From contig NZ_CP047935.1 in the NCBI RefSeq assembly GCF_014279995.1, positions 124,001 through 188,000 on the forward strand: DNA of 64,000 nucleotides, in the 5' to 3' direction. Below are positions 13,072 through 56,831 of this stretch, piece by piece. The notes below the pieces were generated by a model. The model saw only the letters and a program-made list of their open reading frames with translations. It did no database searches and was not told where the DNA came from. Both the position numbers and the translations under genes were made by a program. Positions within the stretch are counted from its first letter, which is position 1; each line of letters opens with the position of its first letter. This DNA comes from Synechococcus sp. BIOS-E4-1 (GTDB lineage Bacteria; Cyanobacteriota; Cyanobacteriia; PCC-6307; Cyanobiaceae).

Positions 13072-13135
13072 GATTAGCAAAAATCAGCAGCAGATATTGA
13101 GCTCGAATCCACAGGAGACCTGTAACTGAAGGTGG

Positions 13136-13287: not shown

Positions 13288-13590
13288 CTTCATCACAAGT
13301 TCGCAATGATCGATAGCAAAACAGTCATTACCGGCATTTTTAACTTGTATCAGATGGCCGCTCACACCAACGACGGAACAGTGCTGTTCATTGGCTCACC
13401 CAAGCTCGGTGCTCTCTGCACCCAAGGTATGGATCGCATGTGGCGCGATGCCGAGCTAAGGATCAGGCCATCAACACATCGAAGTTTGGAACGGCAGCGA
13501 GTCAGATGCGGAATTGGACAAATGAGGGACTCAGAGCGGCTTCCGAGGTGTCTTAGCATGCAGCAGAAAAATGGCTCAGACGATGTAAAT
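13282..13590 (+). pseudogene. C-terminal fragment of a phospholipase D-like nuclease
   Basis: From 13291 the frame reads HHKFAMIDSKTVITGIFN, an intact HKD motif (H-x-K-x4-D) followed by the family's T-G-S/I-F-N signature, AAHTNDGTVLFI and the LERQRVRCG tail seen in single-domain PLD/Nuc proteins. The N-terminal half is missing and the tail runs out of frame into the leader of TPR gene B, so it is a fragment. An identical fragment precedes TPR gene C. Confidence 0.72.
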
Positions 13591-13623
13591 TGCTCTTCAA
13601 ATAAGGGGTGGTGGAAGCCGTAA

Positions 13624-18306: not shown

Positions 18307-18370
18307 GATTAGCAAAAATCAGCAGCAGATATTGAGCTCGAATCCACAGGAGACCTGTAACTGAAGGTGG

Positions 18371-18522
18371 TCAGCATGCATTTTCCAGAAGCTGGATTAA
18401 GTAATTTCCATAACCACTCTTTTTCAAAGGTTCAGCCAAAGCCTTTAGCTGATCAGCAGAAATCCAGCCATGCCTCAAGGCCACCATTTCAGGGCACACC
18501 TCACTAATCATATGACAATAAG
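18371..18522 (-). pseudogene. Second copy of the rfbA 3' fragment
   Basis: This has the same reading as the fragment at 13136-13287 (VALRHGWISADQLKALA, YGNYLIQLL, stop). Preserved in both copies because the block was duplicated recently, not because of selection on the fragment. Confidence 0.78.
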
Positions 18523-18825
18523 CTTCATCACAAGTTCGCAATGATCGATAGCAAAACAGTCATTACCGGCATTTTTAACTTGTATCAGATGGCCGCTCAC
18601 ACCAACGACGGAACAGTGCTGTTCATTGGCTCACCCAAGCTCGGTGCTCTCTGCACCCAAGGTATGGATCGCATGTGGCGCGATGCCGAGCTAAGGATCA
18701 GGCCATCAACACATCGAAGTTTGGAACGGCAGCGAGTCAGATGCGGAATTGGACAAATGAGGGACTCAGAGCGGCTTCCGAGGTGTCTTAGCATGCAGCA
18801 GAAAAATGGCTCAGACGATGTAAAT
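18517..18825 (+). pseudogene. Second copy of the PLD-like nuclease fragment
   Basis: Identical by eye to 13282-13590: the HKD motif HHKFAMID starts at 18526, followed by SKTVITGIFN. It ends just before the start codon of TPR gene C and lacks the N-terminal half of the enzyme. Confidence 0.7.
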
Positions 18826-18858
18826 TGCTCTTCAAATAAGGGGTGGTGGAAGCCGTAA

Positions 18859-38812: not shown

Positions 38813-39784
38813 TCAGTCTGCAGCTTCCAGCCAGTGCAGGGAGAGGTCATCGGCAGGATCGTGCCAGCGGTGGCGCCAGTGCCAGCTTGCGTCTTTGGCC
38901 AGTTCACGGGCCATCTCTGCTGAGTATTTGACGCTGTATTCGGTCACAAGGGGCTGTCCCGGGCTGAAGGTCCATGGTTCACCACCCACCGAGACCGTTT
39001 GATTGACTTCGCTGATCAGGGCCATGCGCACACGGCTCTCTGTCTCCTGCCAGACAGCCTCGTAAAGGAAATTGTCTGGATTGAAGTCGGCGCCTAAATC
39101 ATTGTTCAGTCTCTGCAGCAGGTTGTGGGCGAAGGCGGCGGAGATCCCTGCTGCATCGTTGTAGGCGGCCTCCAGCCTGGACCTTGATTTGGGCTGATCA
39201 AGTCCCAGCAACAGCGGTCCCCCATCGAGCAGTCGCCTGAATCTGCGCAGCAGCGCAATGGCCTCGTCGCGAGTGAAGTTGCCGAGGGAACTACCAGGAA
39301 AGAACCCCACTCGCCTTTCCCCACGGATCAATGGATGGTCTGGAAGAGCATCGAGCTGACTGTGATCGCAGCAGATTCCCAGCATTGGCATGCTGGGATG
39401 TTGGGCCTGAAGTGACGCCATCGACTGGCGCAGGTGGTCCGCGCTGATGTCGAGAGCCACATAGGCGGAAGGTTGCATCGCTTCCAGCAGTGGTCCCACC
39501 TTGCGGGCGCTGCCTGCTCCGAATTCAACGATCGCCCCTGATCCAATGGCACGGGCGATGTCTGCTGCTGATGACTCCAGCAGGCTGATTTCTGTTCGGG
39601 TGAGGCTGTACTCCGGTTGCTCGCAGATCTGGTCAAACAGTCGCGATCCCACGTTGTCGTACAGAAACCATGCTGGTAGCTGGCGGGGTTCGCGTTGTAG
39701 ACCGTTATGCACAAGCCGTTGCATATCTGCATTGGGTGGATGCAGGTCGATCAGTTGAGGACGCGCAGGCGTTTGTGTTGTCAT
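38813..39784 (-). CDS. egtD: L-histidine N-alpha-methyltransferase EgtD
   Basis: 323 residues. It trimethylates histidine to hercynine using SAM, the first step of ergothioneine synthesis. Features: LPAWFLYDNVGSRLFDQIC and PEYSLTRTEISLL at the N-terminus, SAM loop IVEFGAGSARKV near residue 85, RRVGFFPGSSLGNFTRDEA in the middle, and a C-terminal YSVKYSAEM. Its start codon sits inside a repeat of the egtB 3' end, showing that egtD once overlapped egtB by ATGA; the AT-rich island now separates them, so egtD needs a promoter within the island edge. Confidence 0.95.
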   Translation of the reverse strand: MTTQTPARPQLIDLHPPNADMQRLVHNGLQREPRQLPAWFLYDNVGSRLFDQICEQPEYSLTRTEISLLESSAADIARAIGSGAIVEFGAGSARKVGPLLEAMQPSAYVALDISADHLRQSMASLQAQHPSMPMLGICCDHSQLDALPDHPLIRGERRVGFFPGSSLGNFTRDEAIALLRRFRRLLDGGPLLLGLDQPKSRSRLEAAYNDAAGISAAFAHNLLQRLNNDLGADFNPDNFLYEAVWQETESRVRMALISEVNQTVSVGGEPWTFSPGQPLVTEYSVKYSAEMARELAKDASWHWRHRWHDPADDLSLHWLEAAD

Positions 39785-40312: not shown

Positions 40313-41806
40313 ATGATTCACAGATCTTCTTCCGCTACCAGCAAAACTTTCCTCAAGGGTTTTGGCCGCTTGGCTTCTCTTGGATTGGTAGGTTCCACAT
40401 TGATTAGCTGTGCTGGAACTGATAATTCTTCAGTTTCTAAAGATACGTCTGACGCATCAATGTGTGAAAACATCCATATTGGTACACAAGACCAAGTTAT
40501 TAATACAGCGGTTGGTGGCGCTACAGTTCGAGAATTAAAATTCTTTGAGGATAAGCTGCCTAAAGATGGAAAATACAAAGATCTAGATTATAATATTGAA
40601 TGGTCGAGTTATACATCAGGTCCTCCAATTACAAACAAAATGATGGCTGGACAAATTCAAATTGGCCTGATGGGGGATTTCCCTGCTGTCATTAATCTCA
40701 TTAAAGGCAGGGAAGGATCAGGCGATACTAAAACTGTCTATATCGGCACTCTGGCATATAGTCCTAATGGTGCAGGCAATGCTGTAGTAGTCCCAGTCGA
40801 TAGCAAAGCAACAAGCTTGAAGGATTTAAAGGGTGGAACTGTTTCTGTGCCTTTCGGCTCAGCAGCTCATGGAATGGTTCTGAAAGCTTTAAAAGATGAA
40901 GGTATTGATACTGAAAAAGATCTCACCCTCATAAGCCAAGCTCCAGCTGTTGGGGGTTCTGCTCTCCAAAAAAATCAAATTGAAGCGCATGGGGACTTCG
41001 TTCCTTTTGGCGAGCTTTTCCCTTACCGGGGTTTTGCAAAAAAAATATTTGATGGAGCTCAGACGGGTGTTCCAACCCTTCACGGCATAACTGTACGTGA
41101 AGATTTTGCAAAAGCTTGTCCTGAAGTAGTTACAGCTTTTATGGAGTCAGTTCTTGTGGCAAATAATAAATTTTTTGATAGTCCTGAAATAATTTCGGCG
41201 CAGATTGAGGAATGGTCTGGCATTGATAAGGAAGTCGTCTATATGTTTTTGGGACCATCTGGGCTGCAATATCTTTCTCCAGAAATAGAAGAAGTCCAGC
41301 TTCAAGCACTTGAAAACAGTATTGCAACTTTAAAAAGCTTGGGCAAAATTGAAAACGAAAACATTCAACCATCAGATGTACGTGGTTGGATTGATAACAC
41401 TTATTTAGAAAATGCAGCAGCAAAACTAAATTCTTCTGTTGATGCGCAGATTGAAAAAGGTAAGAATTATCAGATATCAGGTTCTGATGCTTTTGATAAT
41501 ACTCCAATAACTAATCCAAAGAATGCTGGTCAAATTTGGATTGAGGGTGAAGAAAAAGTTCAGAACTATTCAAGCCCTGTCAGCATGGTGAAGGCTCTAA
41601 AGGAATTTGAGAAAAATGGTAAGACCCCAAGTGTTGTTTTTGTTCATGACATGAATAAAGGTTGGAAACTATTTGCAAACACAGCGTTTTTTGTTGAAAA
41701 CGATGGCGAGGTTACTGCATTTTTGTTGAAGGATGATGCTGATGCATATGCCCAGAAATCTGGAGGGAAGGTAATCGATTTCGCTCAGCTTCAATCACTT
41801 GGATGA
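40313..41806 (+). CDS. NitT/TauT-type substrate-binding lipoprotein with C-terminal NosL-like domain
   Basis: 497 residues. Lipoprotein signal (LGLVGSTLISCAG, Cys near residue 33). Residues about 50-350 form an NMT1/SsuA-like binding protein: YIGTLAYSPNGAGNAVVV, VSVPFGSAAHGMVLKAL, MGDFPAVINLIKG, EEWSGIDKEVVYMFLG. Residues about 400-497 resemble NosL, the copper-binding accessory lipoprotein: VVFVHDMNKGWKLFANTAFFV and DADAYAQKSGGKVIDFAQL match the NosL pattern (V-x-D...W-x-x-A-x-x-A-x-x-V...A-x-x-F-A-x-x-x-G-G-x-V-x-x-F). This fusion is unusual. It binds the imported compound in the periplasm. First gene of a four-gene operon; the identity of the ligand is not readable. Confidence 0.88.
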   Translation: MIHRSSSATSKTFLKGFGRLASLGLVGSTLISCAGTDNSSVSKDTSDASMCENIHIGTQDQVINTAVGGATVRELKFFEDKLPKDGKYKDLDYNIEWSSYTSGPPITNKMMAGQIQIGLMGDFPAVINLIKGREGSGDTKTVYIGTLAYSPNGAGNAVVVPVDSKATSLKDLKGGTVSVPFGSAAHGMVLKALKDEGIDTEKDLTLISQAPAVGGSALQKNQIEAHGDFVPFGELFPYRGFAKKIFDGAQTGVPTLHGITVREDFAKACPEVVTAFMESVLVANNKFFDSPEIISAQIEEWSGIDKEVVYMFLGPSGLQYLSPEIEEVQLQALENSIATLKSLGKIENENIQPSDVRGWIDNTYLENAAAKLNSSVDAQIEKGKNYQISGSDAFDNTPITNPKNAGQIWIEGEEKVQNYSSPVSMVKALKEFEKNGKTPSVVFVHDMNKGWKLFANTAFFVENDGEVTAFLLKDDADAYAQKSGGKVIDFAQLQSLG

Positions 41807-41858
41807 GTATAGGAGGAAATAGTTTAGAGCTTCACTAACAAATCTTCGATTAAATTTC

Positions 41859-42728
41859 ATGGCAGTCACCGCGTCTTCAGGTACTTCCCACGAACCTTCA
41901 ACAGTCACTGTCAGGAAGCGAGGAAAATCATTTCGTCGCTTCCTGACAAACCACGGTGGTTCACTGAGCCGTCGAACCTTGTCATTAGTTTTCTTTCTTT
42001 GTTTATGGCAAATCTTAAGTGTTTTGAAAATTAATTTCATCATTAACTTTCAATTCGTGCCAGCACCTACGGAAGTTGTTTCTGCATTTGTTTCCTTTGT
42101 ACAAGCCAACCCTTGGATACATTTAAGATCAAGCATCTTCAGAGTTATTTGTGGTTTTACTGCAGGTTCAATATTAGGCATTGCAATTGGTTTGCTGATT
42201 GGTTCATCCCATTTAGTTGAGGAACTAGTGGCAACTCCTTTAGAGCTCTTACGTCCAATTCCTGCTGTTGCTTGGATACCTCTAGCTATTCTAATGTTTC
42301 CAAATGCAGAAATAGGGATGTTTTACATTACTTTTGTTGGAGCATTTTATCCTATTCTTGTCAGCACTCAAAAATCAGTAGAGTCATCGCTGTCTGATTT
42401 ATTAATGATTAGAGTAGGACAATGTTTAGGTGCATCGTATTATCAGCTTTTTAGAGATATCATTATCCCATCATCGCTCCCCGGTATAAGTGCTGGTCTT
42501 GTAATTGGTATGGGAAATGCTTGGTTTTGCCTTGTAACCGCAGAAATTATTGCCGGTAAATATGGCATAGGTTACAAAACTTGGGAATCTTATGTCATTT
42601 CTGAATATCCTCCCATTGTCATGGGAATGATTTTAATTGGACTATTAGGAGCATTTTCTTCTCAATTGATTCAATACTTTACTAATCAAATGATGCCTTG
42701 GCGTCAAATTACAAAAGGTACCCTCTGA
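41859..42728 (+). CDS. ABC transporter permease, SsuC/TauC/NrtB family
   Basis: 289 residues. A basic Ser/Arg-rich N-terminus, then six membrane segments; the cytoplasmic EAA-type loop is near residues 190-215 (CLGASYYQLFRDIIIPSSLPGI). AWIPLAILMFPNAEIGMFYI is typical for this permease family. Works with the preceding binding protein and following ATPase (10-base gap). Known members import nitrate, cyanate, taurine, aliphatic sulfonates, bicarbonate or pyrimidine precursors. Confidence 0.94.
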   Translation: MAVTASSGTSHEPSTVTVRKRGKSFRRFLTNHGGSLSRRTLSLVFFLCLWQILSVLKINFIINFQFVPAPTEVVSAFVSFVQANPWIHLRSSIFRVICGFTAGSILGIAIGLLIGSSHLVEELVATPLELLRPIPAVAWIPLAILMFPNAEIGMFYITFVGAFYPILVSTQKSVESSLSDLLMIRVGQCLGASYYQLFRDIIIPSSLPGISAGLVIGMGNAWFCLVTAEIIAGKYGIGYKTWESYVISEYPPIVMGMILIGLLGAFSSQLIQYFTNQMMPWRQITKGTL

Positions 42729-42738
42729 TTTTCTTCCA

Positions 42739-43521
42739 ATGTCTAATCTTCTTGAAATCACGCAGCTAAGTAAGTTCTTTGGAGATAAAAACTCACGGCG
42801 CTGCGTTCTTTCGAATATTAATCTGCGCATTCAACCAGGTGAATTTGTCTGTTTATTAGGACCTTCTGGATGCGGAAAATCTACGTTGCTAAATGCAATT
42901 GCGGGATTTAATAGGCCAGAATGCGGTATTATTACTGTTAACGACAAACCTGTTTCAAAACCTGGTCCTGACCGCGGCTTTGTTTTTCAAAAGAATTCAC
43001 TGTTGCCCTGGATGACATTAGATCAGAATGTTGGTTATGGGTTGAAAATACAGGGATTATCAAAGGAACAAATTAACATCAAAGTAGAACATTTTTTAGA
43101 CTTAGTAGGCCTTATAGGTTATAAAAAGAATTTTCCACACGAACTCTCAGGTGGTATGCAACAGCGTGGCAGCATTGTTCGAGCTTTAATTACAAATCCA
43201 AAAGTCTTATTGATGGACGAACCATTTGGAGCTGTAGATGCTCAAACAAGGATAATACTTCAAGAGATGTTATTGAGTATATGGGCGAAAGTAGGTATAA
43301 CTATTATATTCGTTACTCATGACATTGATGAGGCTGTTTTGTTGGCCGACAGAATTGTTGTTATGGGAGTTAATCCTGGCCATATTAAGGAAATATTTGA
43401 TGTTTCGCTAAAGAGGCCGCGCTCGGCTGATTCAACTTTTTTAGATGAGTTTAGAGATATTAAGCTCAGAATTCTTCGTACGATACGCGAGGAGACTGAC
43501 AAATTAATGATCGCGGCGTAA
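42739..43521 (+). CDS. ABC transporter ATPase, SsuB/TauB/NrtD family
   Basis: 260 residues. Walker A LLGPSGCGKSTLL, Q-loop FQKNSLLPWMTL, signature LSGGMQQRGSIVRAL, Walker B VLLMDEPFGAVD and switch histidine in IIFVTHDIDEAVLLADR. It energises the importer. It has none of the C-terminal sensor domains found in NrtC. 9 bases before the YeiH-family gene. Confidence 0.95.
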   Translation: MSNLLEITQLSKFFGDKNSRRCVLSNINLRIQPGEFVCLLGPSGCGKSTLLNAIAGFNRPECGIITVNDKPVSKPGPDRGFVFQKNSLLPWMTLDQNVGYGLKIQGLSKEQINIKVEHFLDLVGLIGYKKNFPHELSGGMQQRGSIVRALITNPKVLLMDEPFGAVDAQTRIILQEMLLSIWAKVGITIIFVTHDIDEAVLLADRIVVMGVNPGHIKEIFDVSLKRPRSADSTFLDEFRDIKLRILRTIREETDKLMIAA

Positions 43522-43530
43522 TCAATTATA

Positions 43531-44586
43531 ATGTATTTTTTAGTTGTAGGGATTGTCTTTAATCTTTTTGTCTTCATTTTTTTGCCAGATCCATCTATTA
43601 AAAAATCTCTATTATCATCAATTTTTTTGCAACCAATCCTTCTGTCTTTGGTAGCAGGTTTTTTATTTCGTAATTCGCTTGATGGCCGTTCAACCTGGAT
43701 TGGTCAGTCAGATTGGTTATCTTCACGAGCGCTTTCTTTTGCATTATCCCTGATGGGCGCTCAATTTGTCTTATCTGATTTATTAGCTATTTCATGGCAT
43801 ACAATTGTATCTCTTTTGTTTTGCATTTTTCTCACATGTGTCGTTGGAACTGTTGTTAACCGATTCCTTAAACTTGACAACTCCTTCATGTTATGGCTTT
43901 TAGCAGGTAATTGTATATGTGGACCAGCTGCTATATCATTTGCGTCTCAGATCTTTAATGGTGAAAAAAAAGATATTGCCAAAGCAATATGGATTAACAC
44001 ATTAATTGGTTTTATATTGATGATTCTATTGCCATTCTTTGCAGATTTGCTTAATCTCTCTTCAGAAGCTTTTGGAGTCTGGGCAGGTTCATCCTTACAA
44101 TCTACAGCACAAGTAGTTGCAAGTGCTTCTATTTTTTCGACTGAATCAACCGACATTGCATTAATGATAAAATCTATACGAATTATAATGTTATTGCCAG
44201 TAATGTTTTTATTGAAAATTTTATCATCTCCAAATTCCATAGAATATTCTGATTCCAAAAAAGCTAGAAAATATCAATTTTCTCTAAACTCTTTTCTTAG
44301 AACTTTCCCCAGATTTTTGATCGTATTTTTGATGCTTTCTTTCATTTCTCTAATGATTGATTTAAGTGGTATTCTTTACGGTCCTGAATTTTCTCTATAT
44401 ACCGTATTTTCTCAATTGAGACCATTGTTAGGTCAAGTTTCCAAATTCTCTTTGTCCTTGGCTATGTTTGCAATTGGATATTTATGTAATTTTGATCTCA
44501 GTCGAAGTGATTGCCGGGCTATTATATTCGCTATTTTTACGGCATTGCAATTAGTATTTACCTCATATTTTATAATTAGAATTTAG
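43531..44586 (+). CDS. YeiH-family membrane protein (putative anion/sulfate exporter)
   Basis: 351 residues, about ten hydrophobic helices. Family features (UPF0324/Cons_hypoth698): ALSLMGAQFVLSDLLAI, a glycine-rich NCICGPAAISFAS, and SSLQSTAQVVASASIFS. Members have been linked to export of sulfate or other oxyanions in sulfonate degraders, though direct proof is limited. Fourth gene of the importer operon, so uptake and release are co-expressed: the converted product may be expelled here. Its last 11 bases overlap the convergent regulator gene. Confidence 0.88.
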   Translation: MYFLVVGIVFNLFVFIFLPDPSIKKSLLSSIFLQPILLSLVAGFLFRNSLDGRSTWIGQSDWLSSRALSFALSLMGAQFVLSDLLAISWHTIVSLLFCIFLTCVVGTVVNRFLKLDNSFMLWLLAGNCICGPAAISFASQIFNGEKKDIAKAIWINTLIGFILMILLPFFADLLNLSSEAFGVWAGSSLQSTAQVVASASIFSTESTDIALMIKSIRIIMLLPVMFLLKILSSPNSIEYSDSKKARKYQFSLNSFLRTFPRFLIVFLMLSFISLMIDLSGILYGPEFSLYTVFSQLRPLLGQVSKFSLSLAMFAIGYLCNFDLSRSDCRAIIFAIFTALQLVFTSYFIIRI

Positions 44587-46516
44587 TCATGCCTAGATCA
44601 CGCATTGCTGAATCAAGGTATTCTGTCTGAACTATACTACTTCTTTTAGATACTGTTGATTTATTGCGTTGGTTTTCTATAAATATTTTTTCGGTGTACT
44701 CTTCAATCCAATCTTCTCTAATCTTCATGTCAGGTTGATAATGTCCGTCTTTCCCATGACGCTCCCCTAAGATGTAATTAATATGGAACATATCTACACC
44801 AGTCCATCGGCTAAGATGTTGAATCGATGAAGTTGTGTTTTTAAACCAATAATTTGAACATAGCATTGATTTGAGAAATGCAATAACTATATCAGGTTGT
44901 TGAACAGCAAATTGTCGTCTTGCAACAACGCCATAAAATGCAAATGGTGTTGATACTTCATCTTCTACTTTTTGGTAGTGATGTTCCGCTGAGATGATAT
45001 GATCGAATGGTGTAAAACATGCCACTGCTCCAGCATCCATAGAATTATCAAAAGGAGTTTTCTGGTTCTCAAGACTTATATTTATTAATCTTGCTGAACT
45101 GAGTATATTATTCTGATTTAAATTGTAAAGAAGACTTCCATGAGCCGTAGACAAAAAAGGCACAGCAATTATATTATTTTTAAGGTTTTTTAATTCGGTT
45201 TCTTTAATATCCTTGCGAATAAGCAAACTCGATCCACTTCCGTAAGGATTGATGCTCACAAAGCTTATAAGTATCGGCCCGTTCTCATCGTTATATGATT
45301 GATTTGTAGCCATATGACTAATCGCGTAATCTCCTATGATTGCAATATCTAACTCTGATTCCTTGAGACCTTTAAGCATTGGAGCTGCTGATTTGTAATC
45401 TATCCATTTTGTTGAGAACTGGTTTTGAGAGCTGTCGCTAATTTCCGCAATAAAAGAGTCAAGAAGCCCAAGCTTTTGAATGGCTCTTCCCGAAACCACC
45501 GTTTGAATAGTTCTATTTTGAATTCCAATTTTTAAGACCTTATTTTCTGAATGTTTGACAGTAATTGGTGAATTACTTTGTTTTTGAGAAGCCTTACTAA
45601 GCCTTGGCAGAATCGGTGGGTAATTATCTTCGAATTGATAGTTCAGATCTGCACTGAATACGAGATCATTACTATTTGGCTGTTCACCTTGTTTCCCTTT
45701 ATGAGCGAGTAAAAATAGTCCATATGGCGTTGACAGTTCATTAACTCTAATGCGTTTGCAATTGCTCGGTACTTTTGTATTGCATAGCTTGATGCCTATT
45801 CCGCCAGCATCCCTAATTAGTTCTTCCATCAGTTTTTCCGAGACGTGGGAACGTTTTGTGAAATCAGTAATATCGAGTCCAAATGGTCTAATTCTTGTTT
45901 CGAGCAAATGCAAGCTTTCAGAATGCAGTTCCGGAAGAAATACTCTCTTCGAAAGCAACTCGCATAGATCAATAGATTCTTTGTTGCTTAAATCATCATC
46001 TGAATATACAAGCATAAACTCTTCATCGGTTATCAAGCGAGATTTAATTTCATTGGAATCGGTTTTGTATCTCGAGAGTCCAAAGGCATTGGTGTCTTTT
46101 TTTAATAGATCAATAATTTCCTGTTCGCTATTGCATTGAAATGTGTGAGTTGTTATTTCTTCGCCAAGTGTTGACTCTATATGTAATATGACCTGTTTAA
46201 GAGCGCTCATGCTAACGTCAGATTCGTGATATATAGTGTAATTAAGTTTATTTTGTTTTTCTTGGTTGTCAAAGTAATGCTCTAACTCCTCAATTTGTTT
46301 GACGACATGCTCCAGCTTCTCTTGTGCATAACGACCAGACTCTGAGAGGTGAATTTTATTATTTTCGCGATGAATTAGTGTTGTTTTTAAGTGTTTCTCG
46401 AGTGCTATGACCTTCAGGCTTATTGAGGGTTGACTCAGGTGTAAAAATTTTGCAGCTTTTGTGAAGCTACCAAATTCGGAAACAGCTAAAAATGCCTTGA
46501 TTTGAGAGAGGTCCAT
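44576..46516 (-). CDS. LysR-type regulator fused to a substrate-binding-protein domain
   Basis: 646 residues from ATG 46516 (MDLSQIKAFLAVSEFG); an upstream in-frame start at 46579 would add 21. Residues 1-60 are the LysR winged helix (FTKAAKFLHLSQPSISLKVIALEKHL). Residues about 90-290 are the usual LysR sensor domain. Residues about 325-600 are an NMT1-like binding protein homologous to the transporter's own: VLKIGIQNRTIQTVVSGRA, IAIIGDYAISHMATNQ, IAVPFLSTAHGSLLYNL, LSRWTGVDMFHINYILGERHG align with its motifs. It lacks a signal peptide, so it is cytosolic. The extra domain may sense the imported compound. LysR regulators are about 300 residues, so the protein is twice the usual length. Confidence 0.9.
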   Translation of the reverse strand: MDLSQIKAFLAVSEFGSFTKAAKFLHLSQPSISLKVIALEKHLKTTLIHRENNKIHLSESGRYAQEKLEHVVKQIEELEHYFDNQEKQNKLNYTIYHESDVSMSALKQVILHIESTLGEEITTHTFQCNSEQEIIDLLKKDTNAFGLSRYKTDSNEIKSRLITDEEFMLVYSDDDLSNKESIDLCELLSKRVFLPELHSESLHLLETRIRPFGLDITDFTKRSHVSEKLMEELIRDAGGIGIKLCNTKVPSNCKRIRVNELSTPYGLFLLAHKGKQGEQPNSNDLVFSADLNYQFEDNYPPILPRLSKASQKQSNSPITVKHSENKVLKIGIQNRTIQTVVSGRAIQKLGLLDSFIAEISDSSQNQFSTKWIDYKSAAPMLKGLKESELDIAIIGDYAISHMATNQSYNDENGPILISFVSINPYGSGSSLLIRKDIKETELKNLKNNIIAVPFLSTAHGSLLYNLNQNNILSSARLINISLENQKTPFDNSMDAGAVACFTPFDHIISAEHHYQKVEDEVSTPFAFYGVVARRQFAVQQPDIVIAFLKSMLCSNYWFKNTTSSIQHLSRWTGVDMFHINYILGERHGKDGHYQPDMKIREDWIEEYTEKIFIENQRNKSTVSKRSSIVQTEYLDSAMRDLGMTKF

Positions 46517-46922: not shown

Positions 46923-48596
46923 TCAGAATTTAAAAGTTGTCTGTATTAAACCTCCAAACACGTTAAATCGTCCGTCATAGCCAGCTCCATTGTCAATTAG
47001 ATTTTGTGTGTTTTGCCCCATTGGCCTTGATAGATAAAAAAGAGCTGGTGCTACAGCTATATTATCCGTGACTTGAAAATTATAGTAGAGTTCGAAGATA
47101 TAGTTACCATCGAATGCTGTATCACTGCCTTCGAGAGCTGTGGCAAAGGTCGGCTGGCCAACAGCAATGCCAAGGGCGTTACCGTCCATAAGCGCATCTT
47201 CCCACTTCAGGCCTGTGAACCAGCTCTGTGAGTTGGTGTATGTTCCATCAACAATTCTTTTGCCATTGACTGTGTTTATCGACCAACCTATTGAAATGGA
47301 TGGAATTAATCCACTTTTCTCTGGCTGCCAATAAGCGTTTAACGCATAACTGTTGGAGGAACGCGTTGTGCGCTCTCCATTCTCAGTCGTGCACTTAAGA
47401 TTGTATTTCTCGTTCTGTACGAAAGAAGTGCCTTTTCTAAAATTTGAATCACACTGGCCATATCGATACGCACCTGCTATGCCATAATTTCCATTTCCCC
47501 AACCTACCTGAGCTGTAAGATTTGCTGCTGAATTTTCAGTCATAAATCCTCCTTCTCCAGGGTTTGAATTAGACCCTGCTTTATTACCAGTCACATAGTT
47601 GATGCTGACATTTAAATTAGGCTCACCTTTATCAACTTTTTGCTGCCAGTAACCTCCAATTAATTGTCCTGTTGCTTTGTTATAAACTCCTGGCACACCG
47701 GCAACAGCAGTATAGTCAAGGATAGTGGCCCCCCCTTTTGTATATACAGATGGCCACATTGCTAATACTTCAGTATTTCTCGCTTTTGCACCCGCGATGA
47801 ATGTGAAGCTTTCCCCAATTGGAAACTTGTAAAAGAGTCGATCAACTTTGACATTATCTTCGCTTGCAAACGCGATGTTTAGTCCTGTTAGGTTAACTCC
47901 TCTTCCACCGAAAGCTGATTGCCCGAAGTTGCCAGCGCGTAACTTTGTTCGTAGTAAATCCTTTCCGGTAAAGCTCGTATCGAGAAATAAATCAAGATTG
48001 TAATTAAATGTTAGTGCGCCAAATTCTTCGTTATATGCATCTGCTCCACCGGTTCCAACTTGATCGAAAGATATGCCATTTTGACTGTCACCATTAGCAT
48101 TGACCCCACCAATGACGAAAGTTGTTTTACCTTTCAGCTTGGTCGTGGTGGAGAACTGGGTTGCTTCCAGTTCGCCAACGCGAGCTTCCAGACCGTCAAC
48201 ACGGCCCTTGACGATGGCGAGTTCCTTTTCGAACTCCTTCATCAGACGCTTGAGCTCGTCGGTCACTTCGGTGACGCGGTCGAGACAGGCATTCAGCAGT
48301 GCGGCCGCCTCAAAGCGGGTCATGGCACGGTTGCCGCGGTAGGTGCCGTTGGGATAACCGGCGACACAGCCGTAGCGCTCAATCAGGTTGCTGAGAGCCT
48401 GATAGGCCCAGTCGGTCGGGTAGACATCAGAGAACTGGGTGATGCTGGTGACCTGCTCGACCGACACCGCATCTTTTGATAAGGGAACATAAGATGAGAT
48501 GCGATCAATACTCAGTTCTGTAGCGTTTGTTGCAGAAGTCTGTGCTAAAAGCGCTACTACCGCTTGGCAGGCAAGGAATTGATGAGCTAGTTTCAT
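46923..48596 (-). CDS. SLH-domain OprB-type outer-membrane porin
   Basis: 557 residues from ATG 48596 (MKLAHQFLACQAVVALLA, signal peptide), preferred over an upstream frame start at 48632 because AGG lies at suitable spacing. The mature protein has an S-layer-homology domain (FSDVYPTDWAYQALSNLIERYGC, AMTRFEAAALLNACLDRV) that binds peptidoglycan-linked polymer, a coiled coil (ELKRLMKEFEKELAIVKGRVD and on), then a beta-barrel ending in phenylalanine (GLIQTTFKF). It would let substrate cross the outer membrane. The SLH-coiled-coil part (about 48130-48475) is much more GC-rich than the rest, so the gene is mosaic. Confidence 0.93.
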   Translation of the reverse strand: MKLAHQFLACQAVVALLAQTSATNATELSIDRISSYVPLSKDAVSVEQVTSITQFSDVYPTDWAYQALSNLIERYGCVAGYPNGTYRGNRAMTRFEAAALLNACLDRVTEVTDELKRLMKEFEKELAIVKGRVDGLEARVGELEATQFSTTTKLKGKTTFVIGGVNANGDSQNGISFDQVGTGGADAYNEEFGALTFNYNLDLFLDTSFTGKDLLRTKLRAGNFGQSAFGGRGVNLTGLNIAFASEDNVKVDRLFYKFPIGESFTFIAGAKARNTEVLAMWPSVYTKGGATILDYTAVAGVPGVYNKATGQLIGGYWQQKVDKGEPNLNVSINYVTGNKAGSNSNPGEGGFMTENSAANLTAQVGWGNGNYGIAGAYRYGQCDSNFRKGTSFVQNEKYNLKCTTENGERTTRSSNSYALNAYWQPEKSGLIPSISIGWSINTVNGKRIVDGTYTNSQSWFTGLKWEDALMDGNALGIAVGQPTFATALEGSDTAFDGNYIFELYYNFQVTDNIAVAPALFYLSRPMGQNTQNLIDNGAGYDGRFNVFGGLIQTTFKF

Positions 48597-48782
48597 TGAT
48601 GATGGCCTCACACTGTGTAATTGAGCTGGCAAAACAACTCGACATAAATTTATTCTTGATAGCGAAAAAATATTGAACTTTATTATTGATATTTTTAATA
48701 GCCTTATTCGTTATTTCAATCTATATGGACCTGTAATTAGGACAGATTCGTATATAGTTATTGGTGTCAATATAAATCTTTC
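48597..48782. promoter_or_regulatory. Divergent promoter region between porin and flavoprotein operon
   Basis: 186 bases shared by two divergent operons. AT-rich. A possible -10 for the plus strand lies around 48753-48758 (TATAGT). I see no GTA-N8-TAC element here, unlike in front of the importer operon. T-N11-A LysR-type dyads are too degenerate to judge by eye in such AT-rich sequence. Confidence 0.45.
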
Positions 48783-50489
48783 ATGGACATCCAACGTCAT
48801 CAAGTTGATTTTTTAGTCGTAGGTGGTGGTACAGCTGGATGTATGGCAGCTATCAAAGCCAAACAAAGGAATCCTGATGCCAATGTATTGGTTTTAGAAA
48901 AGGCAAATATCCGACGCAGTGGTGCAATTGCAATGGGAATGGATGGTGTTAATACTGCTGTTATTCCTGGTAATTCCACACCTGAACAATATGTCAAGGA
49001 AATCACGATTGCGAATGATGGAATCCTTGATCAAAAGTCTGTGTATAAAACTGGTGAATTGGGTTTCAGTGTTATTCAGGAACTCGAAAGTTGGGGAGTG
49101 AAATTTCAAAAAGATAATGAAGGAAACTACGATCTTAAACAAGTTCATCGCGTTGGTAAATATGTTTTACCAATGCCTGAGGGTAAAGATCTTAAAAAGA
49201 TTCTTTCTCGTCAGGTTAAGCGCCATAAAGTTAAAGTGATTAATCGCGTAATGGCGACTCGTGTTGTTGTACAAAACGATCGTGTAGCCGGCGTTACAGG
49301 TTTGGATGTTCGTTCTGGTGATTTTCATGTTATTCAAGCGAAAGCGGTACTTCTTTGCACTGGGGCTTGCGGTCGTCTTGGATTACCGTCTTCAGGATAT
49401 TTATATGGAACTTACGAAAATCCAACTAATGCTGGTGATGGTTATTCTATGGCCTATCATGCCGGAGCAAAATTATCAAACCTAGAATGTTTTCAAATTA
49501 ATCCTTTAATTAAGGACTACAATGGTCCTGCTTGTGCATATGTGGCAAGTCCGTTCGGAGCTTATACAGCAAATGCTGAAGGTAATCGTTTTATAAGTTG
49601 CGATTACTGGAGTGGTCAGATGATGCTCGAAATGTGGAAAGAACTCAATTCGGGATCCGGACCTGTACATCTAAAAATGTACCATTTGGACGAAGCAACT
49701 ATTTCGGAAATTGAAACTGTTCTTTTCGCTAATGAGCGTCCGAGTCGAGAACGTTTTCATGCTGGACGCAATGAAAATTATAGAACCCACGGAGTTGAAA
49801 TGAGTATATCTGAAATTGGTCTATGTAGCGGACATTCTGCCTCAGGAGTTCAGGTTGATGAAAATATGCAAACTTCAGTAACCGGCCTTTATGCTGCGGG
49901 GGATATGGCTAGTGTTCCTCATAATTATATGATCGGTGCTTTTGTTTCTGGCAGGGTTGCGGCCGAGCATGCGATAGATGCAATACGTGATTTTGAGCAT
50001 CAAGAACCTGATGAATCTTTTTTAATGGAGGAGCAGAAAAGAATTTATGCCCCTATATCTAATCCTGACGGCATCCCTCATACTCAAGTTGAATACAAAC
50101 TCCGTCGTTTTGTTAATGATTACTTACAGCCACCAAAAGCTCCGCACAATATGCAAATAGGGCTTGATAAATTCGTGGCTTACAATTCTGTCTTGGCTGA
50201 GCTTGGTGCACGTGACCCGCATGAGTTAATGCGTTGTATGGAAATTCATTTTATTCGTGACTGTGCTGAAATGGCTGCACGTGCTTCACTTTTCAGGAAG
50301 GAAAGTCGATGGGGTCTCTACCATTATCGTCTTGATTTCCCAGATCGCAATGATGATGAATGGCTTTGTAATTGCATTGTTCAAAAAGCTTCAGATTCAT
50401 CAATGCTCCTCTGCAAGCAACCACTTCAACCTTATATTATTGACGTGAATGTTTCAGAAGAGCAGTATGACGTTGCTGTTCCAGTTTAA
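48783..50489 (+). CDS. AprA/fumarate-reductase-like flavoprotein
   Basis: 568 residues of the FAD-dependent fumarate reductase/succinate dehydrogenase/adenylylsulfate reductase (AprA) superfamily. N-terminal FAD-binding FLVVGGGTAGCMAAIKAK, then SGAIAMGMDGVN (AprA-like), capping domain, second FAD motif VTGLYAAGDMASVPHNYM and the helical C-terminal domain. The EIGLCSGHSASGVQVDE segment is reminiscent of the AprA active-site region. No signal peptide: cytoplasmic. The ferredoxin gene 14 bases downstream gives an AprAB-like pair. It may oxidise or reduce a sulfur or carbon-nitrogen compound delivered by the importer. Exact reaction unknown. Confidence 0.88.
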   Translation: MDIQRHQVDFLVVGGGTAGCMAAIKAKQRNPDANVLVLEKANIRRSGAIAMGMDGVNTAVIPGNSTPEQYVKEITIANDGILDQKSVYKTGELGFSVIQELESWGVKFQKDNEGNYDLKQVHRVGKYVLPMPEGKDLKKILSRQVKRHKVKVINRVMATRVVVQNDRVAGVTGLDVRSGDFHVIQAKAVLLCTGACGRLGLPSSGYLYGTYENPTNAGDGYSMAYHAGAKLSNLECFQINPLIKDYNGPACAYVASPFGAYTANAEGNRFISCDYWSGQMMLEMWKELNSGSGPVHLKMYHLDEATISEIETVLFANERPSRERFHAGRNENYRTHGVEMSISEIGLCSGHSASGVQVDENMQTSVTGLYAAGDMASVPHNYMIGAFVSGRVAAEHAIDAIRDFEHQEPDESFLMEEQKRIYAPISNPDGIPHTQVEYKLRRFVNDYLQPPKAPHNMQIGLDKFVAYNSVLAELGARDPHELMRCMEIHFIRDCAEMAARASLFRKESRWGLYHYRLDFPDRNDDEWLCNCIVQKASDSSMLLCKQPLQPYIIDVNVSEEQYDVAVPV

Positions 50490-50503
50490 TCCCTCTTATT
50501 ATC

Positions 50504-50731
50504 ATGTCTCTTGCTTTCAACCGTTCTGACGTTCCCGTCATTGTTGACGAATCCAAATGTCTCGAAAAATGTAATGCTTGTATTGAGGTATGTCCTCTTG
50601 ATGTATTAGCTAAAAATCCTGATACTGGAAAGGCATACATGAAGTATGACGAGTGCTGGTTCTGCTTACCTTGTGAGAAAGAATGCCCAACCGGTGCTGT
50701 TAGTGTTCAAATTCCATTTTTGCTTCGTTAA
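50504..50731 (+). CDS. 2x[4Fe-4S] ferredoxin (AprB-like)
   Basis: 75 residues with two cluster motifs: CLEKCNACIEVCP (C-x3-C-x2-C-x3-CP) and CWFCLPCEKECP (C-x2-C-x2-C-x3-CP). The x3 spacing in the first cluster, and the Trp-rich second, resemble the AprB iron-sulfur subunit, but the C-terminal tail that wraps AprA is missing (AprB is about 150 residues). It is the likely electron donor/acceptor of the flavoprotein. Two-base gap to the HEAT-repeat gene. Confidence 0.9.
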   Translation: MSLAFNRSDVPVIVDESKCLEKCNACIEVCPLDVLAKNPDTGKAYMKYDECWFCLPCEKECPTGAVSVQIPFLLR

Positions 50732-50733
50732 GT

Positions 50734-51717
50734 ATGCAAATGATTCCCAACACTTTTTCTCTGGCTTTTGAGGCTTTAGATGATGAACTAAAAGGGCCAG
50801 CTGAGATGGTTTTTTCCGAATCTGATGAAGACCGTCTTGTTGCTGTTGTTTCTTTGCAACATCTTTGTGACGAAGACTCCGTTCCATTCTTAATTCATGC
50901 TCTTAGCGACACCTCTGACGATGTTGTCTTTACTGCGGTTACCTCTTTGTGGGAGATTGCTAGTCAAGAAGCTGTGATTCCCCTTATAGATTGCTTGCGT
51001 GATTCGAAAGCAGAGCGCATTCGACAAGAAGCATTGAATGCACTTAAGGAATTAGTCAATCAAGATCATCTTATGAAATTGCTTGACTATCTTGATGAAA
51101 GCGACATAAAATTACAGGCATCAATATTAGTGCTCCTCCGCAAGATCCATGATGTTCAGGCATTACCATCTGTAGCAATCTTTTTAGAATCAGACCATGA
51201 AGTATTGCGTAAGGAATCTGTAATGACGCTCCGCTATCTTAATCAGCTAACACATTTTCCACCAGCACTTAAACTTGCGAGTGATTCTAGCGTAAATGTT
51301 CGAAAGGAAACTATGTTGACCTTGGCTCATCTAGATCAGCCTGATGTTATAGATATTCTTGAGTCATCATTGCTTAATGACGATTCATGGGAGGTAAGAC
51401 GTAACGCCGCTCAAGCACTTGAACGTAAATCTAACCCTTCGACCTCTACATCATTGGCAGTCGCCATTCAGGATAAGCATTGGCAAGTAAGAAAATTTGC
51501 GCTTAGAGCGCTTCAACCTCACGTTTTGGATGAATTTTCTCCCACAATCATTTCACTTCTTTGCGACGAGTATTCTGATGTTCGTAAAGAAGCTGCACTC
51601 GCTCTAGGGGGAATTGATTCTGAACAGGCCAAGGCTGCACTATCGCAATCTCTCAATGACACGGATATTGAGGTCAGAATTGCTTCTGAAAAATCTCTAG
51701 CTCGCTTGCAAGCATAG
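50734..51717 (+). CDS. HEAT-repeat protein
   Basis: 327 residues composed of about ten PBS-lyase-type HEAT repeats (for example VVSLQHLCDEDSVPFLIHAL; RKEAALALGGIDSEQAKAAL). It has no catalytic motif; these solenoids typically act as chaperones or scaffolds, in cyanobacteria also as lyases for bilins. Strictly wedged between ferredoxin and Mrp-like genes, it is probably an assembly factor of the flavoprotein-ferredoxin complex. Overlap with the ferredoxin end is avoided by 2 bases. Confidence 0.9.
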   Translation: MQMIPNTFSLAFEALDDELKGPAEMVFSESDEDRLVAVVSLQHLCDEDSVPFLIHALSDTSDDVVFTAVTSLWEIASQEAVIPLIDCLRDSKAERIRQEALNALKELVNQDHLMKLLDYLDESDIKLQASILVLLRKIHDVQALPSVAIFLESDHEVLRKESVMTLRYLNQLTHFPPALKLASDSSVNVRKETMLTLAHLDQPDVIDILESSLLNDDSWEVRRNAAQALERKSNPSTSTSLAVAIQDKHWQVRKFALRALQPHVLDEFSPTIISLLCDEYSDVRKEAALALGGIDSEQAKAALSQSLNDTDIEVRIASEKSLARLQA

Positions 51718-51749
51718 ATTGTTTTGTGTAAGTTTGGAGGACTCTGTTT

Positions 51750-52766
51750 GTGGATTTAAATTGTTTGACTCAGGAAGAATTTCGTCTCAAAGAAGTACGG
51801 GATTGCCTGGATTGTGTGAAGCTACCTGGCTCTCAACTATCTATTATCAAGGCGGCTTTGGCCCGCAATATTAGAGTTATTCAAGATGATATCTATGTTC
51901 GTCTTTTTCATGGCTCCGATCAGATCGAACTTGTTTTAAACACGCAAAATGCTTTATCAGCATTAGCCTGGTCAAATCGAATTATTGTTGATCCAAGATC
52001 TATTCCAGGTGTTAAACGAACTATTGCTATTGGCAGCGGTAAAGGAGGGGTTGGGAAAACGACAGTTACTGTAGGACTTGCTAATTCTTTAAGTAAAAGT
52101 GGTTATAACGTTGGAATACTTGATGCTGACATTTATGGTCCAAATGTATCTACACTTTTAGGCGTCGATTCTATTGAAGTAGACACTTTCGTAAGTAATA
52201 ATAGAACTCGCTTTATCCCAGCCACCATTCGAGACCTAAAAGTTATGTCAGTTGGTATGCTGGCCGACGCTTCTCAGTCCCTTGCATGGCGTGGTCCAAT
52301 TCTGACTAAATTGTTGAAGCAATTTCTCTTTGATGTTGAATGGGGAGAGCTTGACTTTTTGCTTATTGATCTCCCGCCAGGAACAGGAGATGCTCAAATA
52401 ACAATACTTCAGGAATGTCCACTTGCAGGAGTTCTACTCGTTGGGGTACCTGGAACTTCTTCCCAAGCAGACTTGGTACGTACAATTGCAATGTATAAAC
52501 AGTTTGATTTAACTATACTCGGTTATGTTGAAAATTTTTCTTCTATTGAATGCCCTAATTGCGGAAATGTCTTTCCATTTCTTTTAGACTATCTTCCTGA
52601 AGATCAAGCCATGGCTGACATAAAAGACCTTGAAGTTTTAGTGCATCTTCCTGTTCAACCTGACGTCTTGACGAAAAGTTGTCAAAATGTTGAACACACA
52701 CTTGGCAATATATATCCCGAATCTTTTTTAAAAGTAGCCAATAAATGCAAGGAACTACTTGTATAA
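51750..52766 (+). CDS. Mrp/ApbC-family P-loop ATPase (Fe-S cluster carrier)
   Basis: 338 residues from GTG 51750, preceded by GGAGGA. An N-terminal MIP18/DUF59-like domain (about residues 1-80) is followed by the deviant Walker A GSGKGGVGKTTVTVGLA, LDADIYGPNVSTLLG, and LIDLPPGTGDAQITIL. Near residue 265 CPNCG supplies the CxxC that coordinates a bridging [4Fe-4S] cluster. Known members carry Fe-S clusters to target proteins. Last gene of the flavoprotein operon; I infer a dedicated supplier of clusters for the ferredoxin. A second copy of a housekeeping Mrp would normally be elsewhere in the genome. Confidence 0.93.
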   Translation: MDLNCLTQEEFRLKEVRDCLDCVKLPGSQLSIIKAALARNIRVIQDDIYVRLFHGSDQIELVLNTQNALSALAWSNRIIVDPRSIPGVKRTIAIGSGKGGVGKTTVTVGLANSLSKSGYNVGILDADIYGPNVSTLLGVDSIEVDTFVSNNRTRFIPATIRDLKVMSVGMLADASQSLAWRGPILTKLLKQFLFDVEWGELDFLLIDLPPGTGDAQITILQECPLAGVLLVGVPGTSSQADLVRTIAMYKQFDLTILGYVENFSSIECPNCGNVFPFLLDYLPEDQAMADIKDLEVLVHLPVQPDVLTKSCQNVEHTLGNIYPESFLKVANKCKELLV

Positions 52767-55610: not shown

Positions 55611-55652
55611 TCATTGGGCCAGGCGTAGACCTGCCGCCATCCAGCGGCTGGC
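55611..55652. repeat. Right boundary repeat of the island (3' end of egtB)
   Basis: Partner of 39781-39822: the first 18 bases (TCATTGGGCCAGGCGTAG) are identical, 35 of 42 match overall. This copy is part of the functional egtB gene (last 13 codons and stop). Confidence 0.9.
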
Positions 55653-56831
55653 CGGGGTGAAAAAGTTCCGGTAAGTGTCGCGGGAATGCCCTTTGGGTGT
55701 GAGCCGGCTGCTGCCCCGCAGTACGAACTGGGAGGTCATGAATTTGCCGTTGTATTCGCCAACCGCACCTGCGGCAGGTTGAAAGCCCGGGTAGGGGCGA
55801 TAGGGGCTTGAGGTCCACTGCCAGAGATGGCCATGGCTCTGTTGAAGTAATTCGCCATGATCAGAACTGGCCAGCTCCCATTCCGCTTCGCTGGGTAGGC
55901 GGGCGCCGGCCCAGCGTGCATAGGCATCCGCTTCGAACCAGCTGAGGTGACGCACCGGCAGGTGGTCTTCCAGTGGGCAACGGCCAGCCAGGGTGAACTC
56001 CCAGCGCCAGGGACCTTGGCCATCGGGGTCTCGTCGCCAGTAGCGGGGTGCTTCCCAGTTGCGCTGACTGCGCTCAGCCCAGCCCTCACTCATCCAGAGC
56101 TCAGGACGCTGGTAACCGTCATCGTCGATGAAGCATCGGTAATCAGCATTGTTCACCAGTCGAGCCGCGATGCTGAAGGGTTCCAGCCAGGTTCGATGTC
56201 GCGGTCCTTCGTTGTCGAAGTGGAAGGAATCACCGTTGTGGCCCACCTCCACCAGGCCTCCGCGGCACTTGAGCCAGGATCCCTGCATCGGTAAGTCTGT
56301 TGGTCTGCAACTGGTGATGGGCTGGTCATCACACTGTTCACGCCAGTCGCTGCGATAGGCCGGTTCGAGTGGCTGACGGCTGAATCCATCCAGCAGGTCC
56401 ATCAGCATCAGTTCCTGATGCTGTTGCTCATGGTGAAGGCCCAGTTCCACCAGGTCCAGCCACGGTGCTTCGCTGTGGTGCTCCAAAAGCTCTTCCAGAG
56501 CAAGGTTCACCCGCTTGCGCCAGGCTGAGACTTCCTCCATTGGTGGTCGGCTGAGCAGTCCTCGCTGTGGCCGTGGCTGTCGCGGGCCAACAGCTTCGTA
56601 ATAGGAGTTGAACAGATAACTCCAGCGAGGGTCAGCAGGCACATAGCGCGGATGGTTGGGCTTCAGCACGAAGGTTTCGAAAAACCAGGTGGTGTGAGCC
56701 AGGTGCCATTTGGGTGGACTGGCATCGGCCATGCCCTGCAGGTTGAGGTCTTCGGTATTGAGGGGCTCAATCAGCGCCTCACTGGTACGACGCACCTCCA
56801 TCAATCGGTTCAGCAGTGAGCCGGAGGCCAT
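55611..56831 (-). CDS. egtB: Ergothioneine biosynthesis sulfoxide synthase EgtB
   Basis: 406 residues. EgtB joins hercynine with a thiol donor (gamma-glutamylcysteine or cysteine) and oxygen on a non-haem iron. N-terminal DinB-like helical domain with iron ligands: His in KWHLAHTTWFFE and H-x3-H-x-E in LHHEQQHQELMLMDLL. C-terminal formylglycine-generating-enzyme-like domain (EVGHNGDSFHFDNEGPRH, VRHLSWFEADAYARW, RLPSEAEWELA, GSSRLTPKGHSRDTYRNFF). The start at 56831 is back to back with the kinase-like gene. The distance to egtD is now 15.8 kb. Confidence 0.95.
   Translation of the reverse strand: MASGSLLNRLMEVRRTSEALIEPLNTEDLNLQGMADASPPKWHLAHTTWFFETFVLKPNHPRYVPADPRWSYLFNSYYEAVGPRQPRPQRGLLSRPPMEEVSAWRKRVNLALEELLEHHSEAPWLDLVELGLHHEQQHQELMLMDLLDGFSRQPLEPAYRSDWREQCDDQPITSCRPTDLPMQGSWLKCRGGLVEVGHNGDSFHFDNEGPRHRTWLEPFSIAARLVNNADYRCFIDDDGYQRPELWMSEGWAERSQRNWEAPRYWRRDPDGQGPWRWEFTLAGRCPLEDHLPVRHLSWFEADAYARWAGARLPSEAEWELASSDHGELLQQSHGHLWQWTSSPYRPYPGFQPAAGAVGEYNGKFMTSQFVLRGSSRLTPKGHSRDTYRNFFTPASRWMAAGLRLAQ

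Follow-up and report, generated by a model that had tools for sequence, protein, structure and literature searches.

A LysR-type regulator of Synechococcus sp. BIOS-E4-1 with a C-terminal domain from the family of the neighbouring transporter's binding protein, a putative cytosolic sensor

Why should a LysR-type transcriptional regulator end in an additional domain that resembles the receptor of the transporter encoded beside it? This question is raised by a stretch of 64,000 nucleotides from Synechococcus sp. BIOS-E4-1 (Cyanobiaceae; contig NZ_CP047935.1, positions 124,001 to 188,000), which is referred to below as the window and comes from a genome assembled as one contig of 3.31 Mb. The gene of the regulator, on the minus strand, faces an operon on the plus strand (40313-44586) that encodes the substrate-binding protein (SBP), permease and ATPase of an ATP-binding cassette (ABC) transporter and a YeiH/UPF0324 protein, the gene of the latter overlapping the 3' end of the regulator gene by 11 bp. 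Beyond a porin gene there follows an operon for a flavoprotein, a ferredoxin, a HEAT-repeat protein and an Mrp ATPase (48783-52766; Table 1). A preliminary description of the window had proposed that the regulator carries a cytosolic copy of the transporter's own receptor, and that the same ligand is thereby measured inside the cell.

The fusion, its coordinates and reading frame, and both motif pairs on which that proposal was built were found to be correct. The motifs VPFLSTAHGSLLYNL at residue 452 and SRWTGVDMFHINYILG at residue 569 of the regulator have their counterparts in VPFGSAAHGMVLKAL at residue 179 and EEWSGIDKEVVYMFLG at residue 299 of the SBP, and about 300 residues following the LysR part align with the operon's binding protein: the Smith-Waterman score of regulator residues 325-646 with SBP residues 50-372 is 257, with 67 identities in 251 aligned residues, against a mean of 33.9 (standard deviation 5.3, maximum 57) for 300 shuffles. 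A hidden Markov model (HMM) of 25 SBPs of this type, which is marked by a C-terminal NosL domain, matches the window regulator over residues 313-643 (E 2e-44, 142.7 bits). The corresponding domains of 13 regulators score 111-264 bits with this model, compared with at most 98.4 bits for the 11 other SBPs that were included in the tree described below and less than that for three that were left out of it. In profile-profile comparisons the 13 regulator domains score 464 against the 25 SBPs (322 columns, E 7e-66), 203 against the other SBPs (248 columns), and 173 against TauA and SsuA of Escherichia coli (233 columns), although these values are only roughly comparable as the target profiles differ in diversity. 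By these measures the extra domain resembles this SBP family more than it does the unrelated NMT1/SsuA proteins included in the comparison, and residues ~326-610 of the regulator are an SBP domain of the same SsuA/NosL-type family as the operon's SBP. The regulator's own LysR effector domain shows no match to the SBP (score 27, shuffles 31.9). The regulators end approximately where NosL would begin; Pfam scans found no PF05573 in the window regulator or in two relatives (L067 and L076; L and G numbers are our own labels), and no ABC_tran domain in the window regulator. Being in the same chain as the upstream LysR DNA-binding domain, the SBP-like domain is predicted not to be exported.

With regard to the origin of the domain, the preliminary description was right about the family (by HMM, profiles and tree), and its idea that the domain was copied from the window SBP was not supported. 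In a tree of 53 domains (omitting three other SBPs, namely a 587-residue one in L018, a CmpA-like one and a second one in L069; L021 was not used), the 13 regulator domains form one clade (100/99) that groups with the NosL-type SBPs, apart from the 11 other SBPs (100/99), and that lies outside the cyanobacterial SBP clade, so a recent ancestor shared with the window SBP was not borne out. A topology that joins five picocyanobacterial regulators with their own SBPs is rejected by 91 log units (approximately unbiased (AU) test, p 1e-57), and the window domain scores higher with an SBP from Variovorax (306) than with its own partner. The domain is therefore an old sister lineage of these SBPs and not a recent copy, and the clade together with the rejected topology suggests that one old fusion with a member of the SBP family is the simplest history. 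The claim is limited to a sister lineage, because the AU test gives borderline values when regulators and cyanobacterial SBPs are joined (p 0.036, and 0.060 in a second set without fast rows, which omits the five picocyanobacterial regulators, the Q type and two long outgroup rows); supports for the place of the regulator clade among the deep branches of the family are about 60.

The regulator was found in 5 of 400 genomes of the family, 6 of 386 of the phylum and 61 of 388 of the class Cyanobacteriia, three samples that overlap; the class count is of full-length fusions with E below 1e-200, to which one fragment (G960) can be added. An SBP of the same family occurs in the same five and the same six genomes (the SBPs of six further genomes of the family sample that were matched by the SBP query are at most 32% identical), as well as in 53 of the 61 regulator genomes of the class, 52 of them in the first search and one (G964) where it is cut by a contig end. 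One genome, G959, an assembly of ~1,840 contigs, has the SBP and no match to the regulator. The two genes need not be adjacent, as they are on different contigs or more than 20 kb apart in 9 of the 52 genomes, and far apart on one contig in G756, G910, G954 and G854. The scan of genome contigs gave one locus, that of Synechococcus sp. AG-679-C18 (L012), with a regulator 73% identical to that of the window.

The regulator gene is beside the flavoprotein operon in 21 of the 22 loci with enough sequence, including five where the transporter SBP is elsewhere in the genome and the window itself, where the porin gene intervenes (the count leaves out L033, L036, L136 and L141, which end too soon, and L104-L133, with short flanks). 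The exception, L138 (218-6487), combines the regulator with another SsuA-type transporter (SBP, permease and ATPase) and lacks a flavoprotein gene in the 11 kb covered, possibly reflecting a change of partner transporter; a gene about 6 kb further on is presumably one for a flavin mononucleotide monooxygenase. The search for the fusion beyond the cyanobacteria covered plasmid records, of which 556 were matched; at least 80% of the regulator was covered in three, all cyanobacterial (95-98% coverage). Proteobacterial and actinobacterial plasmids do carry SBPs that are alignable over at least 80% of the window SBP with its NosL end. Among ten annotated stretches of this kind (two further records with the SBP carry no annotation) the flavoprotein is present in nine, and no fused regulator is annotated in any; regulators near the SBP are GntR-type in five (one named by its UTRA domain only) and Crp/Fnr in four, one of these also having a LysR gene, and one stretch has no regulator close by. 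The genes for the AprA-like flavoprotein, ferredoxin and HEAT protein, joined by Mrp in cyanobacteria, are conserved with the transporter across three phyla, and a literature search yielded no paper on this module. Exporters of the YeiH and TauE types are found in many of the loci. In the small-genome relatives L034 (36-5578) and L035 the module is preceded by a second ABC transporter (SBP, permease and ATPase), accompanied by what we take to be genes for an amidase and an M20 peptidase.

What such a domain might bind can be approached through TauA. A structural paper names Gln30, Gly61, Gly79 and Thr132 as contacts of the sulfonate, Glu106, Thr132 and Asp205 as contacts of the amine, and Trp176 as close to a larger ligand (PMC6906117). 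The E. coli sequence has these residues, and also Ser60 and Leu204, at the numbers printed; at the places printed as Asn55, Asp84 and Ser109 it has Trp, Ala and Val, and these three were left unused, as were Ser10 and Ser32. In a multiple alignment the equivalents in the window SBP are Gln59, Gly103, Gly121 and Ala184 for Gln30, Gly61, Gly79 and Thr132, Asn156 for Glu106, His257 for Asp205, and Phe229 for Trp176. Counts refer to 47 distinct regulators and not to the full set of 61, omitting nine that are identical to another in residues 61-300, three of which are class-genome regulators that match plasmid copies (L067, L068 and L093). The equivalents of Gln59, Gly121 and Phe229 and those of the neighbouring Asp122, Ser183 and Pro231 are each kept in all 47. 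The Gly103 position is Gly in 42 and the Asn156 position Asn in 42, the five picocyanobacterial regulators having Ala and Ser, respectively; the His257 position is His in 22, Tyr in 24 (including those five) and Ser in one, and 22 regulators share the residues at both the Asn156 and the His257 position with the SBP. Position 184 (Ser 28, Ala 13, Thr 5, Leu 1) is also variable among the 25 SBPs, of which only 16 have Gly at position 121. The change from Trp to Phe separates families, all 11 other SBPs having Trp and all 25 SBPs of this family, like every regulator compared, having Phe; further family-specific positions are kept in many regulators and not in the window's lineage. Averaged over 13 regulators, 51% of the 75 positions that are fixed in the SBPs are kept, against 36% in the 11 other SBPs, and the window regulator, with 30, keeps no more of them than some other SBPs do. 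The conservation of the pocket that the preliminary description had asked about thus holds in part for the window: Q333, G395 and F501 are as in the SBP and the neighbours D396, S456 and H459 are kept, but A377, T457, S429 and Y528 differ. In general the anion site appears to be largely kept, and the ligand is probably sulfonate-like, because of the kinship with SsuA and TauA, the anion site, the YeiH- and TauE-type exporters, and the AprA-like flavoprotein.

The effector domain of LysR proteins itself has a type II periplasmic-binding fold, and the window regulator would be a chain that holds two sensor domains of periplasmic-binding type. The label of a normal LysR regulator suits its DNA-binding domain and is not quite right for the effector domain, whose LysR_substrate match of 18.1 bits is below the Pfam cut-off of 28, compared with 96 bits in L067 and 106 bits in L076. 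Among the 13 regulators the mean identity is 63% in the helix-turn-helix (HTH) domain, 32% in the effector domain and 45% in the SBP-like domain, with invariant columns numbering 5 of 198 in the effector domain and 35 of 301 in the SBP-like domain; between the window and L034 the identities are 53%, 23% and 45%, and the tail after the SBP-like domain is poorly conserved. As the SBP-like domain is better conserved than the effector domain, it may well be the main sensor in picocyanobacteria, and the effector domain in the window's lineage, which is drifting fast, may bind nothing any more.

Where such a regulator would act was addressed by looking for its operators. A LysR-type palindrome (T-N11-A) occurs in 20 intergenic regions between regulator and flavoprotein genes, although its score is inflated by related sequences and the shuffles preserve single-base content only. 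The distinctive feature is a pair of boxes exactly 21 bp apart, this being the best of 58 spacings both in the intergenic set from which the matrix was derived and in 13 SBP upstream regions that did not contribute to it; at p <=0.005 the pair is present in seven of eight SBP upstream regions from outside the picocyanobacteria. Whole loci of 9.8-25 kb were scanned with each locus's own site excluded from the matrix (L068 and L093 are near relatives, and L036, L135, L136 and L141 were omitted). The best place was the regulator/flavoprotein intergenic region in all 17 non-picocyanobacterial loci, the next non-overlapping place was 103-135 bp upstream of the SBP gene in eight of eight, and in L147, which has the SBP and no regulator, the best place was upstream of the SBP gene. 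The same was true for SBP operons located apart from the regulator, whose promoters were not part of the matrix training: the best place was upstream of the SBP gene in eight of nine stretches of 9.7-12 kb, with the 21-bp spacing ranking 1 to 5 of 58, and in the ninth, that of G756, a weak pair ranks second and the spacing eighteenth.

A mechanism can be proposed from what was computed here: the fusion, its family, how widely it is spread and how regularly it accompanies the transporter, the positions kept in the pocket, and, outside the picocyanobacteria, the operator pairs. The ABC transporter would import a substrate that closes the SBP-like domain in the cytosol, this C-terminal domain being the sensor of the inducer; the LysR part would sit on two T-N11-A boxes 21 bp apart and would then activate both the flavoprotein-ferredoxin-HEAT-Mrp operon and the SBP-permease-ATPase operon. 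A second signal, such as sulfur status, could in most cyanobacteria act through the LysR effector domain, which looks eroded in the lineage of the window. That the domain binds a ligand, that this ligand is the imported substrate, the direction of regulation, the second input, and the operation of the same mechanism in the organism of the window despite the lack of a convincing operator there are all matters that we infer. On balance we regard it as probable that the protein is a regulator of the transporter and catabolic operons that reads an imported organosulfur substrate through a cytosolic relative of the receptor.

A number of observations weigh against this. The SBP-like domain is an old sister of the SBPs, and there has been time for its ligand preference to change. 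Of the positions that are invariant among the SBPs, approximately half have been lost in the regulators, His257 is kept in fewer than half of the sequences, and the five picocyanobacterial regulators lose Asn156 and Gly103 as well. The equivalence of Asn156 is unsure, since in a pairwise alignment Glu106 of TauA falls two residues on, on Val158, and the pocket was read from alignment alone because structure models of the window regulator and its L012 homologue, made from two-row alignments, failed (mean predicted local distance difference test scores 30.4 and 33.4). The regulator is without an SBP match in 8 of the 61 genomes; the contig ends at the permease gene in two of these (G922 and G962), leaving G815, G869, G887, G818, G874 (91% complete) and G867. 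Taken singly, most operator sites upstream of the SBP gene do not score above shuffled sequence (p 0.04-0.74), the pairs of L075 (p 0.10) and G756 are weak, and the upstream region of the L138 regulator is not among the best places in the locus scan. None of five picocyanobacterial SBP upstream regions reaches p 0.005 for the 21-bp pair, no convincing pair was found in the four picocyanobacterial loci scanned (the window, L033, L034 and L035), and a comparison of two to three picocyanobacterial upstream regions revealed no conserved block. The operator of the picocyanobacteria may differ from that of other cyanobacteria, because their HTH has diverged.

Some of these observations could also be explained if what the domain detects is not the imported substrate but a product of its breakdown, or else a related sulfur anion (sulfite or a different sulfonate, for example). 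In the pocket, the half that holds the anion (the Gln59 and Gly121 equivalents and their neighbours) is kept and the half that would read the tail of the ligand is changed, with His257 replaced by Tyr in 24 and Asn156 by Ser in 5 of the 47 regulators; the six genomes unexplained by contig ends and the different transporter in L138 point the same way. Nevertheless, both tail positions are as in the SBP in 22 of the 47, and the SBP accompanies the regulator in 53 of 61 genomes, so that this explanation seems unlikely, if still one to be reckoned with. Less probable again is the suggestion that the domain has ceased to bind ligands and has become a structural, dimerisation or protein-docking part, similar to the proposed regulatory domain of NrtC/CmpC. 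Although such a role would be compatible with the loss of about half the fixed positions and with a last motif (GPSGLQ) and a QAPAVGG loop that are largely missing, three of the seven TauA contacts and three neighbours are identical in every regulator, and the 11 other SBPs, which are of a kind known to bind ligands, keep even fewer of the 75 positions.

A recent tandem duplication, by which a copy of the window SBP became fused to the neighbouring LysR gene, is suggested by the adjacency of the two genes and by the fact that the SBP query matches only itself and the regulator in the window's genome at E 1e-10 (three of four candidates scored). It is refuted by the single clade of the 13 regulator domains and the AU test, and must be considered very improbable. 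An artefactual fusion, created from two genes by an error of sequencing or assembly, is scarcely credible, being refuted by open frames of 648-733 residues in 61 genomes and by the coverage on three cyanobacterial plasmids.

The principle of a receptor-like domain in a regulator is known from Btr and SgrR/DsvR, and that of a cytosolic receptor copy from NrtC/CmpC. Btr (YbbB) of Bacillus senses bacillibactin in the cytosol. It likewise combines an HTH and a transporter-receptor-like domain in one chain, encoded beside the transporter; its HTH is of the AraC type and its receptor fold that of a siderophore receptor (FeuA), whereas the window regulator has a LysR HTH_1 domain and probably a sulfonate-like class of ligand. 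One paper describes ybbB, upstream of feuA, as an AraC regulator with a putative FeuA-like substrate-binding domain and counts btr among the regulators of feuA (PMC3896406). DsvR, an SgrR homologue, is described as a cytosolic regulator with a predicted C-terminal solute-binding-protein domain (PMC13060122). The layout of SgrR/DsvR (HTH and SBP_bac5) is the same as in the window regulator, with different HTH and SBP families, and we know of no pairing of SgrR/DsvR with a transporter of the same receptor family. In NrtC/CmpC a cytosolic homologue of the transporter's receptor has been proposed to bind solute as a regulatory domain, with a role that is incompletely understood (PMC11349869). There the receptor-like domain is fused to the transporter ATPase and is thought to act on transport, whereas that of the window regulator would act on transcription. 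The sulfur regulators CysB, Cbl and YeiE share HTH_1 with the window regulator and its relatives, as well as the LysR effector domain (strongly diverged in the window) and the T-N11-A boxes of the loci outside the picocyanobacteria, and to our knowledge such ordinary LysR regulators have no second C-terminal binding-protein domain. In the titles and abstract openings of the open-licence literature, no LysR protein with a second, transporter-type sensor was found.

A second type of LysR-SBP fusion, 687-695 amino acids in length, was encountered in three other cyanobacterial genomes (L079:5267-10101, L080:5375-10307 and L081:8012-10078). Its SBP domain scores 141-150 bits on the NosL-SBP profile and is preceded by a LysR HTH (Pfam, L079 and L080); no window-type SBP or permease was found in the 18-kb stretches of L079-L081 and no NosL-type SBP in these genomes, and the neighbouring genes in L079 and L080 presumably encode LLM-type (SfnG/SsuD-like) monooxygenases. 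The AU test gives p 0.27 for both fusion types forming one clade. A porin gene is present in the loci of this second type too; it also adjoins the regulator gene in L033, and does not do so in L034 or L035.

Table 1. Features of the window that are relevant to the fused regulator and its neighbourhood (positions of the window).
Feature	Position	Strand	Evidence or remark
Transporter SBP, SsuA-like with C-terminal NosL domain	40313..41806	+	TIGR01728 E 3.6e-29, below curated cut-off; PF05573 E 4.5e-8
C-terminal NosL domain of the SBP (residues 402-494), which the regulator lacks	41516..41794	+	PF05573
ABC permease	41859..42728	+	PF00528; best NCBIfam SaoP, below cut-off
ABC ATPase	42739..43521	+	PF00005; best NCBIfam SaoA, below cut-off
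YeiH/UPF0324 putative sulfate exporter	43531..44586	+	PF03601 E 1e-43; TIGR00698 below cut-off
LysR-SBP fusion regulator	44576..46516	-	646 amino acids
SBP-like domain, regulator residues ~326-610	44687..45541	-	HMM match 313-643; alignments
LysR effector-binding domain, strongly diverged, regulator residues ~91-280	45677..46246	-	PF03466 18.1 bits, cut-off 28
LysR winged-helix DNA-binding domain, regulator residues 1-62	46331..46516	-	PF00126 E 1.4e-16, 60.6 bits (cut-off 26.6)
SLH/OprB porin, between regulator and flavoprotein genes	46923-48632		
Weak candidate tandem operator, ~80 bp upstream of flavoprotein	48684..48721		Second-best place in 20 kb scanned; not significant alone
AprA/fumarate-reductase-like flavoprotein (PRK08275), first gene of putative catabolic operon	48783..50489	+	NF006131 965 bits, cut-off 587
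Ferredoxin, 75 amino acids	50504..50731	+	87% identity to annotated ferredoxin of Leptolyngbya BL0902
HEAT-repeat protein, flavoprotein operon	50734..51717	+	Domain search and locus comparison
Mrp/NBP35 iron-sulfur carrier ATPase, flavoprotein operon	51750..52766	+	Domain search and locus comparison

Some further features of the window should be mentioned. The start of the regulator is the ATG at 46516, and a longer frame with a TTG start extends to 46579. NosL, a copper chaperone, is similar to the organomercurial lyase MerB. A tie to the selenium-dependent SAO system is no more than hinted at by SaoA and SaoP as the best NCBIfam matches of the ATPase and permease, both below their cut-offs, and the passages of a review that were searched contained nothing on this SBP. 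The whole module is flanked by two genes (38813-39784 and 55611-56831) that look like the ergothioneine genes EgtD and EgtB, as if the module had been inserted between them. Elsewhere in the window there are three very long repeat proteins in a row (7929-21552; 897-1166 amino acids) with near-identical repeat blocks that are TPR-like by eye.

This returns us to the question of why a LysR regulator should possess a second receptor-like domain. It is possible, though we put this rather more tentatively than the regulatory role itself, that a widespread class of cyanobacterial LysR regulators has adopted a transporter-type receptor to sense the inducer, and that a single importer substrate thereby meets two sister receptors, one outside and one inside the membrane; the LysR sensor proper would then remain free for a second, metabolic signal and would be undergoing loss in the picocyanobacteria. 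If so, this would be a LysR regulator in which two periplasmic-binding-type sensors divide the labour. It would also offer a system for asking how a membrane receptor becomes a transcriptional sensor, and a good one, because the pocket can be traced between the two sister domains and operators are predicted for both targets, also in trans. Moreover, as solubility and ease of screening can be expected of the cytosolic domain, the pair of receptor and sensor could reveal the substrate of a transporter and AprA-like flavoprotein module that is found in cyanobacteria, proteobacteria and an actinobacterium.

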